From Candidatus Jordarchaeia archaeon (lineage in GTDB: Archaea; Asgardarchaeota; Jordiarchaeia; Jordiarchaeales; Jordiarchaeaceae): a DNA stretch of 39,871 nucleotides. Within the stretch, counting starts at the first letter, position 1. Each line of letters starts with the position of its first letter. Position numbers and translations under genes: made by a program. The stretch lies in assembly GCA_018383815.1 (NCBI GenBank), contig JAHAWU010000017.1:1-39871 (forward strand), written 5' to 3'. Positions 4,838 through 39,871 of this stretch are shown here, in pieces. The notes below the pieces were generated by a model. It did no database searches. It was not told the origin of the DNA and saw nothing but the letters and a program-made list of their open reading frames with translations.

Positions 4838-5252
4838 TCTTAACTCATCTTCTCCAATTCTACCAAATAATCTCTAGAAGTGCTTAATAAAATCTATTAA
4901 TTAATTTAGTTTTATACTAAATTGTATTCAAACTTGTGAATGTTAAATTGGCACAGAAAAGAAGAATAGAGCAAGTATTGGGTAGACGAACCGTTAACTG
5001 TAGAACTAGGCTTAAAGCTGATACACAAGGAGAGGGCCTTTAACAATAAGTAGTTGCAGATTTCTATTGAACTTACCTTTTTTGAATCTATTTTTGGACA
5101 ATTTAGTTTTGTTTAATTTATATTTGGTTTTAAAATTGTTTGGTTTAAATACCTTTTTGGAAACAATGGAGATGTGAATAAATTGTAACATATAAAATTA
5201 GAACTTAACCGAATACTCACAATATTATGTTGGAATAGATTTTTACCATGTT
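4838..5252. other. Gene-free stretch between radB and the TPR gene
   Basis: This holds the divergent upstream regions of radB and the TPR gene. A 35-codon frame, GTG at 4936 to TAA at 5043, encodes an Arg/Lys-rich peptide (starts VNVKLAQKRRIEQV). A TATA-like TTATACTA (4912-4919) lies about 20 bases upstream, as for a leaderless transcript. I do not recognise it and give it about 0.2 of being a gene. A TTTAAATA lies near 5145. Confidence 0.4.
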
Positions 5253-12220: not shown

Positions 12221-12363
12221 TCATTTGTCTTTACTGATGGGGACCACATTTCTAAGCATAACCCGGAAGAAGAGAACAAAACTTGGGGAGATAAGATTGC
12301 AACGAATTAAACACAATTCAAACTATCCTATATTCAATCGAACTAAAAGACGAAGGGTATAGG

Positions 12364-12456
12364 TGGGCGTACCCGGATTCGAACCGGGGATTCGGCTCCC
12401 GAAAAAGGAATTACCGCGGTGTAAGCGCGGTGTCATAACCGCTAGACCATACGCCC
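12364..12456 (-). tRNA. tRNA-Val(UAC) with a 20-nt intron in the variable loop
   Basis: The spliced 73-nt RNA has acceptor GGGCGTA/TACGCCC with discriminator A, D-arm GTC...GAC, anticodon arm CCGCG-CTTACAC-CGCGG (anticodon UAC), variable loop TAATC and T-arm CCCGG-TTCGAAT-CCGGG. Unspliced, the variable region is 25 nt, impossible for class I tRNA. Removing 20 nt restores a normal 5-nt loop with C48 to pair with G15. The genomic 3' end reads ACCT, so CCA must be added enzymatically. Confidence 0.95.
12391..12410 (-). other. BHB intron of tRNA-Val, position 46/47
   Basis: On the minus strand the geometry is canonical. Central helix CGGT/GCCG is 4 bp with one U-G pair. Both bulges are AAT, cut AA^T. 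The inner stem is UCC/GGA. The outer helix is only 1 bp. Excision gives variable loop TAATC. Because AAT occurs at both junctions, other cuts give the same RNA; the BHB geometry selects 46/47. Confidence 0.85.
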
Positions 12457-21403: not shown

Positions 21404-21412
21404 TTTATATTT
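21404..21412 (+). promoter_or_regulatory. TATA box of the SRP RNA gene
   Basis: TTTATATTT lies 22-26 bases upstream of helix 1 of the SRP RNA (first paired base 21434), the usual archaeal TATA-to-start distance. Confidence 0.6.
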
Positions 21413-21429: not shown

Positions 21430-21803
21430 AGGTGGTGGCAAGTCTAGGCGGAGCGGCTAGGGGTCGCCTGAGAGAGGTTCTCCTCTTGACCGCAAATCCT
21501 CTTTAAGGCGGGCCGAAAGCTGATGCGAGGCTTATCCTAACCGCTAAAACGGTCTATCACTAAGGCAGTGAAGATCCGCACTGGAGGACCGGCGGTGGAT
21601 GGCGGCTTTCCGTAGGGAAAGTTGGTCCATCCTTCGTCGGAGGAACCGGTTAGGCCCGGGAGAGTGCGAGTATAGTGATACTTACGCCTTGAAGGAGCAG
21701 CCTAACTCTGGACGCCTGGTGCTTCCAGTATCCCGGATTGGAGACCAAGTGTTAGATACGTTAGCGGGGCGATTTGACGAGCATCAGGACTTGCCACCTA
21801 AAA
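21430..21803 (+). ncRNA. SRP RNA (7S RNA) with an intron in helix 8
   Basis: RNA scaffold of the signal recognition particle. Closing helix 1: GGTGGCAAGTC (21434-21444) pairs with GACTTGCCACC (21788-21798). Helix 5 is supported in order by CTGATGC/GCATCAG, CCGCTAA/TTAGCGG, ATCCG/CGGAT and CTGG/CCAG. Helix 6 is GGATGG/CCATCC continuing into CGGCTTTCC/GGAAAGTTG with a GTAG (GNAR) tetraloop, the SRP19 site. Helix 8 has 5' TTAGGCCC and 3' GGAGCAGCC, the SRP54 site. The helix-8 tip carries a 31-nt intron; the mature RNA would be about 340 nt. The 73-codon ORF-track entry inside it is spurious. Confidence 0.93.
21663..21693 (+). other. BHB intron at the helix 8 tip of SRP RNA
   Basis: 31 nt. Central helix CGGG (21657-21660) with CTTG (21688-21691), 4 bp including two G-U. 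The 5' bulge AGA is cut AG^A and the 3' bulge AAG is cut AA^G. The inner stem is GTGCGAGTAT (21664-21673) with ATACTTACGC (21678-21687), 9 of 10 positions paired counting G-U, loop AGTG. Joining 21662 to 21694 gives AGGCCC-GGGA-GGGAGCAGCC, the archaeal/bacterial helix 8 consensus capped by a GNRA tetraloop. Confidence 0.88.
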
Positions 21804-22052: not shown

Positions 22053-22967
22053 TTATGATAGTAGTTGGCATGCTTTACATATTTTTTCTACGGAGGGTTC
22101 GCCGCATATCGAGCATTCTTGTATTGAGTTTTGGCTAATGGTAATTTGAGGGCTAATTTTGTCGTAAAGGCGTAGTATGTTATATTTGGTGCCTGGTCTT
22201 TTTCTTTCTATTTGGTTGAGGAAGGAGCGGATATCGTCTCTGTATGCTTCAGGTGCGTATGGGCAGGGTTTTGAATTGTGTTTTAGGTTTCTATAGAAGG
22301 CGTATAGGGTGGTTTCTTTTTCAGGTATTGTTCTTAAAGGTTTTATGCGTGGAACAAGTTTGGGGTGTACTCTTTTATTTGTTGGGCTGTTCCTCGCGAG
22401 TCTATTTAGGTCTCCTCTAAGAAAGTTTAGTAATATTGTTTGAGTTTCATCGTCAAGGTTGTGGGCGGTCGCTATGCAGTCTACATTAGCTTCTAGGGCG
22501 GCTCTGTTCAAAGCTTTTCTTCTGAGTACACCGCAGTAGGAACAAGCGCCTAATCGTTTATTTTCATCTTTTTCTGCACGTTTAATAATATCGTCTAGTG
22601 TTTTGCCATAAATTTTCTTATATGAAGATTGAATGAGAGGTATGTCCAAGTCCAAGGAGTGTTTCTTTACCACTTTTAGGTTGTTGTTGCTGTACTGAGA
22701 TATGCCCTCGTCAACATAAATTATTGATATTTTACTTTCAGGGAAGTTCTTTTCAATCTTATTCAAAATGTGCAGAAGCACCACGCTATCCTTTCCGCCA
22801 GATACAGCAACCCCTATGCGGTCTGATCTATCCAACATTTTATAATGGGAAATTGCTTTTTGAACTCTCTTCTCAACGGAGGTAAGAAAGCATTTACGAC
22901 AAAGTTTTTCTCCTGAGTAGGGTAGGAAAACCACTGCGTTTTTTGTGCATTTTTTACACTGCGTCAA
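22053..22967 (-). CDS. ncsA: tRNA 2-thiouridine synthetase, NcsA/TtuA (TtcA-like PP-loop) family
   Basis: Activates a tRNA uridine by adenylation and inserts sulfur. N-terminal zinc site CKKC...CRKC (4-26), PP-loop SGGKDSVVLLHIL (about 55-67), and the C-terminal zinc site CSICGE...CKAC. Three further cysteines at family positions, CSYCG (about 142, 145) and the single Cys in SKPCPYAPE, are the [4Fe-4S] ligands of this family. 304 residues. It may modify U34 (NcsA) or U54 (TtuA); the presence of Pus10 plus TrmY, which use U54, favours U34 (inference). TTG start; 21 bp downstream of the site-2 protease gene. Confidence 0.9.
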   Translation of the reverse strand: MTQCKKCTKNAVVFLPYSGEKLCRKCFLTSVEKRVQKAISHYKMLDRSDRIGVAVSGGKDSVVLLHILNKIEKNFPESKISIIYVDEGISQYSNNNLKVVKKHSLDLDIPLIQSSYKKIYGKTLDDIIKRAEKDENKRLGACSYCGVLRRKALNRAALEANVDCIATAHNLDDETQTILLNFLRGDLNRLARNSPTNKRVHPKLVPRIKPLRTIPEKETTLYAFYRNLKHNSKPCPYAPEAYRDDIRSFLNQIERKRPGTKYNILRLYDKISPQITISQNSIQECSICGEPSVEKICKACQLLS

Positions 22968-30619: not shown

Positions 30620-32105
30620 ATTAAAAATATATTCAAATAACGCGAAGTACTTCTCACATTTATGAGGCTTTATGAGAGAACGCATTCCTGAGATCTAGAA
30701 CTCGCATTGTATTTTACTCTGGATTAGACAAAATTAGTAATATCCCCCCTTTTAGAACCTCTTCGCTGAGCCCAGATACTTTTTCTACACGCGTGTGGGT
30801 GCTACACTCTTTTAAATTAACGGCTTCTCCTGCATTTACTCCTTAGGTGGGAAAATGCTTAGTTCAGCATGAGGCTTTCCCTAGAAGCTCATTCTTCACG
30901 TGACTAACCTGTTACCTGCTGATAGCACTTACCTCCTACGGAAGAAAAGCAACTTGGTAGCTGATATGGGCGCCAAACCCCGAACATATCACAAGCAGGG
31001 AGTAACTCTCAAGAGGAAAGGATGCAAAGCATAAGCGGACCCTGCATTCCAACTTCATAGACGAACGCAGTTACGGCTCAGAAGATCCCCCACGTTCAAC
31101 CACCAAAACCACCTTTTTGCTCTTCAAGAAGAGCTATTCTAAGTCCTCGCGGAAGAAGTAAGATTACACATGAAGCTGGAGCTTTTGCAAAGGATGCATG
31201 ACTGCAATTTTGAAGAGACTCTACCAACAGAAACATCTGAAAAGAAATAACCCTTATGGAAGCATGTAACACATGATTTTATTCCATCCACGGCCATTAA
31301 ATTGAATACTTTTATATTCCCCATTGATACCTTTTATACTGGGTGATGAGCAGAAGGACGGCTGCCGGTGCCTCATGGCGCTGAGGAAATCCATCCATCA
31401 TGTGGGACTCGAGCACTGTAAAGTGCAGGCTGAGAAGCCTGGCAATGGAGCAGAAATCCTGCGAATTAAGGACTGCAAACGATACACCCATCTGAAGGAT
31501 GACAATGATACGGCCTTTGAACATAAAAATTAAAACATTGGAATATGTTTAAAAGCAAACCGCTGAGGATTCAGATGGAATTGTTGAAACGGCCACCCTC
31601 GAGGATGCAAGTCCAAATAGGCTACCCATGATTCCCACAAGAGGTAGCGGGTAGGACGCTAAGCTGAATGCCGTCAAGAGATTAAATGGTAACATTTATC
31701 TTTTAACAGAAGATGGATTACTCTCTGCACATCACCCCCAAACTCCATTGTTTCCTCATCCTGCTGTAAAGAGGATCTTTATGGTTTGTCCAAGCGTTTT
31801 AGCGTTTCAACTTTTTAATAAATAAGCCCAGTACATCTACAAATCTGATTCTCACAAAAGTTTTCTTTAATACCTACAATGATTGTACGGTTGCTTTTCA
31901 ACTCTTCACTTGCTGTAAATGTTCAAGCAGAACCAATATGGAATGAGTTCTCCGCAAACTCGCCAGAAAATATTTATGAATAGGTTGAAGGTAACTGTTC
32001 GGAATAGTGTTTTATTCATTATAATCGATGGTTATAAAATATCTTAGATACCAATCCATCCTGTCGGTCCAACTTGCACTAGAACGTTTTGCGCCCAGTA
32101 TTTGT
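30620..32105. other. 1.49-kb gene-free stretch with atypical composition
   Basis: The longest gap in the window. Much of 30750-31750 looks richer in G+C than its surroundings and lacks the purine bias of local genes. ORF-track entries here are short (61-70 codons) and antisense to one another. No tRNA, rRNA, RNase P conserved block, CRISPR or terminal inverted repeats were found. Coding-like pieces at 31324-31833 are listed separately. Confidence 0.5.
31324..31833 (+). pseudogene. Possible decayed gene in two frames
   Basis: The frame at 31324-31533 (ALRKSIHHVGLEHCKVQAEK and onward) ends at a stop. A second frame from about 31553 reads QTAEDSDGIVETATLEDASP, then TAG, then DAKLNAVKRLNGNIYLLTED to TAA 31831-31833. 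Residue patterns look protein-like, but no start, ribosome-binding site or family supports an intact gene. It could be chance in a GC-richer segment. Confidence 0.25.
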
Positions 32106-37265: not shown

Positions 37266-37848
37266 TACCCCACAAATTGTCTAACCAGTTTTGTACCATA
37301 ATGATGAAATTATCAACTGGACTATTACCACTAAAAAATACTTCCATATATCCTTGCTCAACTAGTTTATTCCTCATAAAATCAGGAAACGGATATTCAA
37401 GTGGCACAATACAATTTATACTAGCTTTAGTAACTATCTCTTCGATATTTCTTCCCTTTAAATTTGGGAAGATTACCTGTTCCGCATCGATATTTCTAAG
37501 CCTGTCAACTAAATCAGCATCATCTTCGAAGATATAAGCTCCTCGCTTCGATAAAACCTTTTTATTATTTAGTTCCTTTACTTCACCCAGTACCTTCATT
37601 AACAGAATAGAAGTAGATCTTATGTCTGGTCCTAAATATCTTAACTCACTGCCTACTAACTTGATAGTGTAATTTTTATCTTTAATTATAATATATAGAA
37701 CTGTATCTTTTCTGATTCCATTAGAAAGAAAAAAGGCAGTTCTTATACATGCTCCAAGCCTTGAAATAGTGTTATCCACAAATCCCAAATCAAGTTTTCT
37801 TTTGTTAATTGTAGAAATACTATTTAATACGACGCTAAAAATTCTCAT
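37243..37848 (-). CDS. trmY: tRNA (pseudouridine-54 N1)-methyltransferase TrmY
   Basis: SPOUT enzyme converting pseudouridine-54 to 1-methylpseudouridine. Family segments are MRIFSVVLN, ACIRTAFFLSNGIRKDTVLYIII, IKLVGSELRYLGPDIRSTSILLMKVL and a C-terminal EYPFPDFMRNKL. I use ATG 37848, which overlaps the srp54 stop as ATGA, over the ORF-track start six codons upstream. 201 residues. It sits between srp54 and pus10 in an overlapping three-gene operon; Pus10 makes its substrate. Confidence 0.93.
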   Translation of the reverse strand: MRIFSVVLNSISTINKRKLDLGFVDNTISRLGACIRTAFFLSNGIRKDTVLYIIIKDKNYTIKLVGSELRYLGPDIRSTSILLMKVLGEVKELNNKKVLSKRGAYIFEDDADLVDRLRNIDAEQVIFPNLKGRNIEEIVTKASINCIVPLEYPFPDFMRNKLVEQGYMEVFFSGNSPVDNFIIMVQNWLDNLWGNGNNGTD

Positions 37849-39218
37849 GCTAATTTTCCTTTCCACTTCTTTATCTGTTCTGGCGATATACCTTGAGGTA
37901 TCTGCATTCCATGTTTCCCTCTTAACCTCTGCTTTCCCATCATCTTTGCTACTTTTTTAGCTGCAAAATACTGGTCGATTAATTCCTTGACCTCTTTCGG
38001 TTGCGTTCCAGATCCCCTAGCAATTCGAATTATCCTAGAACGGTCGATTAGCTTAGGATTAACCAGTTCCTCCCTAGTCATTGATTGCATCATCACCTTC
38101 CAGTACTTCATTTTATCATCAGCAACATCCTTTAAATCATTTGGAAATTTGGCGCCAACTCCTAACAGTTCCAAAACTTTACTTACGGGCCCCATTTTCT
38201 TAAGTTGTTCCATAGCATTGTAGAAATCTTTTAAAGTAAACCTTCCGCTCAAAAACGCCATTGCTGTCTCCTTATCTGGCGTTAATTCCGCCTCTCTAAC
38301 TTTGTCTAGAAGACTTTGCAAATCGCCCATTCCTAATAGGCGTCCCACAAAGCCGGTTGGGTTAAAACTCTCAATGTCTTCGATCTTTTCACCATTGCCT
38401 ATGAATTTGATTGGAGCTCCCGTAGCTGCTACTGCCGAAAGAGCGCCGCCCCCACGAGCCGAGCCATCCAACTTGGTGACAATTATAGACCCAATGTTTG
38501 TAGCTTCCTTAAAAGCTCGGGCTTGAACAGATGCTTGTTGCCCGAGGGTTCCATCGACTACCAATATTATCTCCTGAGGGTTAATGGCCTTTGCTATGTC
38601 GCGCATTTCCTTCATTAGCCCCTTTTCCTCCTTATGTCTTCCCGAAGTATCAACGATAATCGCTTCACATCCCTCTTTCTGTAGCACCTCTATTCCTTTC
38701 TTAGCTACAGAGACACTACTCTTACTATTTGGGTCTCCGTAAAATTTTACACCCAATTCACTAACTAACTGATAGAGTTGTTCATATGCACCGGCACGGA
38801 ATGTGTCAGCGCAAACTACCCCTGTTTTTAAGCCTCTTTTAGTGAGGTACCTTGCGAGTTTAGCAACTGTGGTTGTTTTACCAGAACCTTGAATCCCTAC
38901 GAGCATGATAATATTTGCTTTTCCTGGTGTTATCTCAAGAGGATACGCTTTTTTACCGAGAATATTTGTTAACTCGTCATAAACTATTTTCACAATATGC
39001 TCTCTTCTACTTATGCCTGGAGGTAATGTCTCGTCAAGAGCTCTTTCCTTAATCCTTTCACTTAGCTCAAAAACTAGTTCCACATTTACATCAGACATTA
39101 GCAACGCTCTCTGAAGCTCTTTAACTAATTCCTCGACAGCTTCTCTATCTGCCACATTTGAACGTATAATCTTATTTATCGCGTTCCTAAGACCTTCGCC
39201 CAATTTCTCTAAGACCAT
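37845..39218 (-). CDS. srp54: Signal recognition particle GTPase Srp54
   Basis: Binds signal peptides and SRP RNA helix 8 and docks with FtsY. N domain (about 1-85), G domain with G1 GIQGSGKTTT, DTSGRHKEE (usual form DTAGRHK) and TKLDGSARGGGALS, then an M domain (about 300-457) with MGPVSKVLELLG, the RNA-binding helix region RSRIIRIARGSGTQPKEVKELI and a Met-rich, basic tail. I use ATG (MVLEKLG) at 39218; the ORF track adds three codons from a GTG. First gene of the srp54-trmY-pus10 operon. Its RNA partner in this window carries an intron at the hairpin this M domain recognises. Confidence 0.96.
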   Translation of the reverse strand: MVLEKLGEGLRNAINKIIRSNVADREAVEELVKELQRALLMSDVNVELVFELSERIKERALDETLPPGISRREHIVKIVYDELTNILGKKAYPLEITPGKANIIMLVGIQGSGKTTTVAKLARYLTKRGLKTGVVCADTFRAGAYEQLYQLVSELGVKFYGDPNSKSSVSVAKKGIEVLQKEGCEAIIVDTSGRHKEEKGLMKEMRDIAKAINPQEIILVVDGTLGQQASVQARAFKEATNIGSIIVTKLDGSARGGGALSAVAATGAPIKFIGNGEKIEDIESFNPTGFVGRLLGMGDLQSLLDKVREAELTPDKETAMAFLSGRFTLKDFYNAMEQLKKMGPVSKVLELLGVGAKFPNDLKDVADDKMKYWKVMMQSMTREELVNPKLIDRSRIIRIARGSGTQPKEVKELIDQYFAAKKVAKMMGKQRLRGKHGMQIPQGISPEQIKKWKGKLA

Positions 39219-39871
39219 TATATTCACATCCTCAAAAGCGAAGCGGTGTTATTTTTAACCATATTTGCTGTAATTATTAATATTATGCATTAGGAAATAA
39301 ATAATGTACTATTATAGAAGCTTCGTTTAACATTATGTATTCCGCTCATGAAAACCAATCTGGCAGAATATTCCTACTTTTTCGAAAAGGCTCTAAGAGG
39401 TTTCCCTTCCTTGTAGCGAAGGATCTTCAAAAATATTTGATGTTGGCTTTCTTTTGGCTTTTAGAGCCTCACCGCCCCTTTTTGCCAAGGCAGCCAAAGA
39501 ATTCCATATGTTTAATCAAAATGCTATTCGGCTGTGTTGTTATACTTTTGGGATGTTTCTTGCCTCCGCAAATACTCGTCTCCTTTCTACGGAAAGATGT
39601 TAAAAGGGGAAATGAGGACTCCGGCAAAATTTCCCAAAACTATGAATGTTACCTAAACATATAGAATATATCCCGTTTTGTATGTAAGTATCAATTCGGT
39701 GCCAATTATTAGAGATTCGGAACTCCAAAAATCAAATTTCAGTATTTGAAAATGAAATGTGTGTTTAAAACTGGTTTTGGCTGGTGGGCAGCCACCAGAA
39801 CCGCAATGCCGCAGCCCTGGACTCCTTTTTAACTCAAAGAGAGGCTTTCTTCAAGAGCCTTCCAGCCCTCC
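39219..39871. other. Gene-free right end, upstream of srp54
   Basis: Includes the AT-rich srp54 promoter region (39230-39330). The 109-codon plus-strand ORF (39335-39664) looks like a shadow. Antisense to it, a 40-codon minus-strand frame (about 39401-39520; NSLAALAKRGGEALKAKRKP) looks more protein-like but has stops at both ends and may be a relic. Near the edge, CTGGTGG-GCAG-CCACCAG (39781-39798), with GGTT/AACC below it across a bulge, forms a strong hairpin of unknown nature. Confidence 0.4.

Follow-up and report, generated by a model that had tools for sequence, protein, structure and literature searches.

The closest described relatives of the locus reported here are the permuted, circularised SRP RNAs of Thermoproteus tenax and T. 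uzoniensis (Plagens et al. 2015, PMC4731332), in which the gene order is permuted, the bulge-helix-bulge (BHB) motif is formed by leader and trailer sequences, helix 1 has been lost and the product is circular. The precursor of the T. tenax RNA forms its BHB at the tip of helix 8, where recombinant endonuclease cleaves it, and the open form of this RNA binds SRP19 and SRP54 poorly; the same authors thought it plausible that the permuted genes go back to an ancestor that had simple BHB introns (PMC4731332). BHB introns are also found in archaeal tRNAs, at the canonical position 37/38 and at non-canonical ones, and in the rRNA and the cbf5 pre-mRNA of Crenarchaeota, cbf5 being the only confirmed case of archaeal pre-mRNA splicing by 2009 (PMC2738675). 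The precedent named in an earlier, sequence-only reading of this DNA was the permuted Thermoproteus RNA with its BHB at helix 8, and our search, of largely open-access literature, gave no other SRP RNA with a BHB.

The SRP RNA gene of Jordarchaeia described below resembles each of these systems in part. As in Thermoproteus, the tip of helix 8 is interrupted and the predicted product restores the helix 8 loop; unlike in Thermoproteus, the gene has the normal order, keeps helix 1, carries a 31-nt internal intron and is predicted to yield a linear RNA. With archaeal tRNA introns it shares a 4-bp central helix, 3-nt bulges and, presumably, the EndA/RtcB pathway, but the host RNA is SRP RNA. The rRNA and cbf5 introns likewise lie in non-tRNA hosts and show lineage-specific gain and loss; they differ in host gene, and here the exon's own tetraloop provides one strand of the central helix. 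The SRP RNA genes of some fungi have introns too, but these are spliceosomal, with a mechanism unrelated to BHB splicing.

The window, that is, the whole 39,871-nt stretch of DNA analysed, is contig 143 of a metagenome bin (3.79 Mb in 234 contigs) assigned to the class Jordarchaeia of the Promethearchaeati (Asgard), in a genus close to Ca. Jordarchaeum madagascariense. An Rfam search placed the SRP (7S) RNA gene at 21436-21796 on the plus strand (RF01857, 132.4 bits against a gathering score of 96.5, E = 3.8e-30). The match covers the whole archaeal SRP model (positions 1-317) and is collinear, with helix 1 present, so that the gene is linear and non-permuted; the Thermoproteus arrangement, with termini at helix 8 and helix 1 absent, was not found in it. 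It is the sole RF01857 match in the whole genome. Reading directly from the sequence, we found a TATA-box-like element, TTTATATTT, at 21404-21412 (plus strand), about 24-32 nt upstream of the mature 5' end, and the block AAAGAAAYGTTTATATTTTTG around it is conserved in all four SRP genes of the genus. Its neighbour is a TtuA-like gene, and this synteny is conserved. This thiolation gene (22053-22967, minus strand) lies directly downstream on the opposite strand, and has the same place in Jordarchaeia relatives, in Baldrarchaeia and in a record titled Bathyarchaeota. The window also encodes, at 37845-39227 on the minus strand, a 460-aa SRP54 protein (Pfam PF00448, PF02978 and PF02881), which is the expected binding partner of helix 8. 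As a separate observation, the RNase P RNA at 31346-31732 (plus strand) contains insertions that the Rfam consensus lacks, one of them a 26-nt hairpin after GAAUGCCGUC that is probably a normal variable helix.

The RF01857 alignment does not accommodate 33 nt, located precisely at the tip of helix 8. The sequence-only reading had placed 31 extra bases at 21663-21693 in this tip, and these coordinates proved exact: the segment AGTGCGAGTATAGTGATACTTACGCCTTGAA (plus strand) is delimited by the sequence itself, by the RF01857 gap and by same-site inserts in 12 other genes. Its removal would shorten the RNA from 361 to 330 nt. On the 5' side, the exon segment AGGCCCGGGAG (21652-21662, plus strand) is identical to the 5' half of the helix 8 tip in intron-less relatives and has 21662 as its last base; on the 3' side, GGAGCAGCC (21694-21702, plus strand) forms the SRP54-binding strand, both sides being placed by sequence and RF01857. 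When 21663-21693 is excised, 21662 joins 21694 to give CCC-GGGA-GGG, the tip of intron-less relatives, and only then does the SRP54-binding loop of helix 8 carry a GNRA-type cap. The junction obtained by cutting after the second base of each bulge, as had been proposed from the sequence, is thus identical to that of the intron-less genes and restores the functional RNA sequence.

The BHB fitted to this segment of the plus strand has the geometry described in the sequence-only reading. The central helix pairs CGGG (21657-21660), which consists of C21657 and the GGG of the GGGA tetraloop that splicing would form, with CUUG (21688-21691), two of the four pairs being G-U in this species. It is flanked on opposite strands by two 3-nt bulges, AG^A (21661-21663) and AA^G (21692-21694), with inferred cuts at 21662/21663 and 21693/21694. 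The inner stem-loop (21664-21687) pairs 21664-21673 with 21678-21687 around the loop AGUG; nine of its ten positions are paired, the mismatch being C21667 with A21684. On the outer side of the register a single C-G pair is followed by the non-canonical symmetric loop of helix 8. When the 31-nt insert was shuffled, the same central helix with contiguous inner pairs arose in 0.18% of 20,000 shuffles; at the 12 other same-site genes each value was at most 0.33%, and at eleven of them at most 0.09%. The unconstrained RNAfold optimum is, however, a neighbouring register in which GAG pairs with CUU, at -22.1 kcal/mol where the BHB register reaches -16.4 (about 6 kcal/mol better), and a competing register of this kind (GAG with CUU or CUC) is the optimum in several species. 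We therefore rejected RNAfold alone as a test for the BHB. The comparison was trusted over the energy because the BHB register is kept in 13 genes while the GAG pairing is broken in six of them, and it is from this comparison across genes, not from folding energy, that the BHB register in the window species draws its support.

Inserts at the identical nucleotide were found in 13 SRP RNA genes, seven of Jordarchaeia type, two from Baldrarchaeia and four from Thermoproteota. The Thermoproteota number is at least four, among the matches listed; 398 genomes of this phylum were sampled by pattern, and model searches added two insert genes. The lengths range from 15 to 60 nt: in the Jordarchaeia type 31 (window), 30 (L024), 30 (L031), 31 (L063), 18 (L012), 24 (L013) and 19 nt (L014); in Baldrarchaeia 26 (L007) and 24 nt (L010); in the Thermoproteota order of a record titled Bathyarchaeota ILS 300, 22 (L058) and 60 nt (L116); and in a second Thermoproteota order 15 (L089) and 23 nt (L090). 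Although the inner sequences are mostly unrelated, the geometry is the same: a stem stands in the required register in every intron, and all four pairs of the central helix form in 12 of the 13, the exception being a G.A within the helix of L013. As part of the tetraloop, the 5' strand CGGG does not vary. Opposite it stands CUUG, CUCG or CCCG, and once ACCG; the two middle positions of this 3' strand are always pyrimidines that face G. The G closing the central helix and the A after it are present in all 13 genes; some searches used patterns favouring this A, but the discovery of L013, L024, L031, L090 and L116 did not depend on such patterns. A 3' strand of CCCG or ACCG, present in six genes, disrupts the competing GAG pairing and leaves the BHB intact.

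The pattern matches L073, L074, L081 and L082 were dropped, being without an SRP RNA match, and eight further ones in bacterial records (L051, L052, L054, L055, L057, L059, L060 and L062) were set aside as chance by title and context. The introns of L007 (Baldrarchaeia) and L116 (Thermoproteota) have AUGGA...UGUCCACCCGAA in common, which may point to common descent or to transfer. L063 comes from a record titled Sigynarchaeota (genome G184); because its genes and gene order match those of the window at 73-78% protein identity, we judged it a mis-binned contig of the Jordarchaeum genus, so that the G184 bin may be contaminated.

For comparison, 105 other SRP loci were classified automatically. 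A closed tetraloop was found at the helix 8 tip of 93 (59 GGGA, 27 GGAA and 7 UGGC), ten were known inserts, and two were left unassigned. Thus 93 of 95 intron-less genes have a plain tetraloop by the automatic test; of the other two, L046 has GGAA by eye and L047 was not classified. At this tip, relatives that lack the insert have exactly the sequence predicted for the spliced RNA. Neither an intermediate expansion of the loop nor an expansion without BHB geometry, which the sequence-only reading had set against its own proposal, was seen among the sampled SRP genes. That reading had also expected the spliced sequence to outscore the unspliced one under a covariance model. We scored both instead with a profile HMM of the helix 8 region built from 91 intron-less sequences, and the spliced form scored higher in all 13 genes, by 14 to 45 bits (57.0 against 25.4 bits for the window gene).

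Genes for the tRNA endonuclease and RtcB are present in intron-bearing genomes, RtcB in all eight of those searched. Two paralogues of the splicing endonuclease are encoded in the window's genome: the contig 8 protein carries Tyr, His and Lys, as a catalytic subunit should, and the contig 180 protein is without the His. Other genes of the genus appear to carry BHB introns as well. In the window, the tRNA-Val(UAC) gene (12362-12456, minus strand) has a 20-nt BHB-type intron in its variable loop (12391-12410, BHB assigned by eye), with the central helix CGGU/GCCG; without these 20 nt an ordinary 75-nt tRNA is left. The position is non-canonical, and ARAGORN calls the gene an ordinary 95-nt tRNA. 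Outside the window, the rtcB genes of this genome (L160, G000:C175:3989-5323) and of J. madagascariense (L161, G002:C464, minus strand) are interrupted between LPD and AHQGYG by 30 nt that include an in-frame TAA. The insert fits a BHB with the central helix CCCG/CGGG; one bulge is AA^G, and the other is AC^A in this genome and AU^C in J. madagascariense. Excision at these bulges gives back exactly LPDAHQGYG in each species. If so, making the RtcB ligase would first require its message to be spliced. Together the variable-loop intron and the stop-containing rtcB intron imply that BHB splicing is used in the genus.

Three other explanations of the insert were weighed. It might be kept in the mature RNA as a plain extension of helix 8 that ends in an ordinary hairpin loop and is never spliced, and the continuous extended hairpins that RNAfold gives with good energies in several genes, including the present one, agree with this. 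Such an extension predicts graded loop lengths and free drift, whereas the tips observed are either the plain tetraloop or a BHB insert; it also leaves unexplained why the 3' strand is complementary to CGGG, why the G and A before the junction are invariant and why the GAG pairing fails in six of the 13 genes. The poor binding of SRP19 and SRP54 by the T. tenax RNA interrupted at the same tip (PMC4731332) is a further point against it, and we consider this explanation improbable.

Still less probable is an RNA that is cleaved at the BHB and never re-joined, its two pieces being held by the helices in the manner of fragmented rRNA. Some rRNAs do function in pieces, and endonuclease action alone would produce such an RNA; yet RtcB is present, and in each of the 13 genes the junction recreates the consensus GNRA-type cap exactly, a match that matters only if the ends are joined. 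An assembly error, a pseudogene or a hairpin arisen by chance could be suspected in a metagenome bin of 234 contigs, but with same-site inserts in 12 independently assembled genomes, a conserved promoter and a gene that is the only SRP RNA copy, we regard the chance of this as negligible.

We conclude, with a probability of roughly 0.93, that the 31-nt insert is a BHB intron in a linear SRP RNA gene, an intron that would be cut out by the tRNA-splicing endonuclease and closed by RtcB to rebuild a helix 8 capped by GGGA. This agrees with the proposal made in the sequence-only reading of a linear SRP gene with a small BHB intron, which now extends to 13 genes with the intron at the same nucleotide, in different inner sequences and the same geometry, and with the enzyme genes present. 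In the mechanism that we propose, a promoter of its own would drive transcription of the SRP RNA, with the intron still in the tip of helix 8; a heterotetrameric tRNA-splicing endonuclease would cut both 3-nt bulges after the second base; RtcB would ligate 21662 to 21694; and the ligation would rebuild the GGGA-capped helix 8 required by SRP54 together with SRP19. Cleavage, ligation and the inactivity of the unspliced RNA are what we infer from these comparisons. By default we take splicing to be an obligatory processing step, with a regulatory role possible; that it gates or regulates SRP assembly would be speculation, for which the sole support is the poor binding of SRP19 and SRP54 by open T. 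tenax SRP RNA (PMC4731332). The T. tenax RNA, with its endonuclease-cleaved BHB at the same tip, also gives the proposed mechanism its nearest experimental backing.

All readable SRP genes of Jordarchaeia and Baldrarchaeia have the insert, and none of the other Asgard genes read does. In Thermoproteota its occurrence is sporadic (four genomes or more), and the orders holding L058 and L116 and L089 and L090 have mostly SRP genes without it. By DNA search an SRP RNA gene was not found in the Jordarchaeia genomes G003 and G006 or in Baldrarchaeia G020, all three without a significant Rfam match, or in the Sigynarchaeota genomes. This distribution would require either several gains at one site or else repeated losses. 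Because the tetraloop itself supplies CGGG, the helix 8 tip is predisposed to BHB introns. A wider proposal, which we think unlikely, is that this tip is a recurrent BHB insertion site in Asgard archaea and Thermoproteota and that, through the interrupted rtcB, tRNA splicing, ligase supply and SRP assembly would be linked in a single feedback loop, with splicing capacity determining how much active SRP there is. Two further observations were made on SRP loci in the survey. Some Thermoproteota genomes have two SRP RNA matches (G287:C1:3279-3591 and 4913-5230; G599, contigs C213 and C252), and in G634 (L159:401-527) the Alu-domain end of the SRP model alone matches, the S domain being apparently absent there; this is possibly a split or divergent gene.

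As judged from its sequence, the Jordarchaeia gene with its cis-intron is the intermediate state that Plagens et al. proposed for the permuted Thermoproteus gene. Because SRP annotation tools leave such introns unmarked, mature SRP RNA sequences would be misread in the intron-bearing groups. The finding points to the tRNA-splicing machinery as the processor of one more essential RNA in Asgard archaea, the closest group to eukaryotes, and in some of them, as in a few other archaea, the universal SRP RNA probably needs splicing before it can function.
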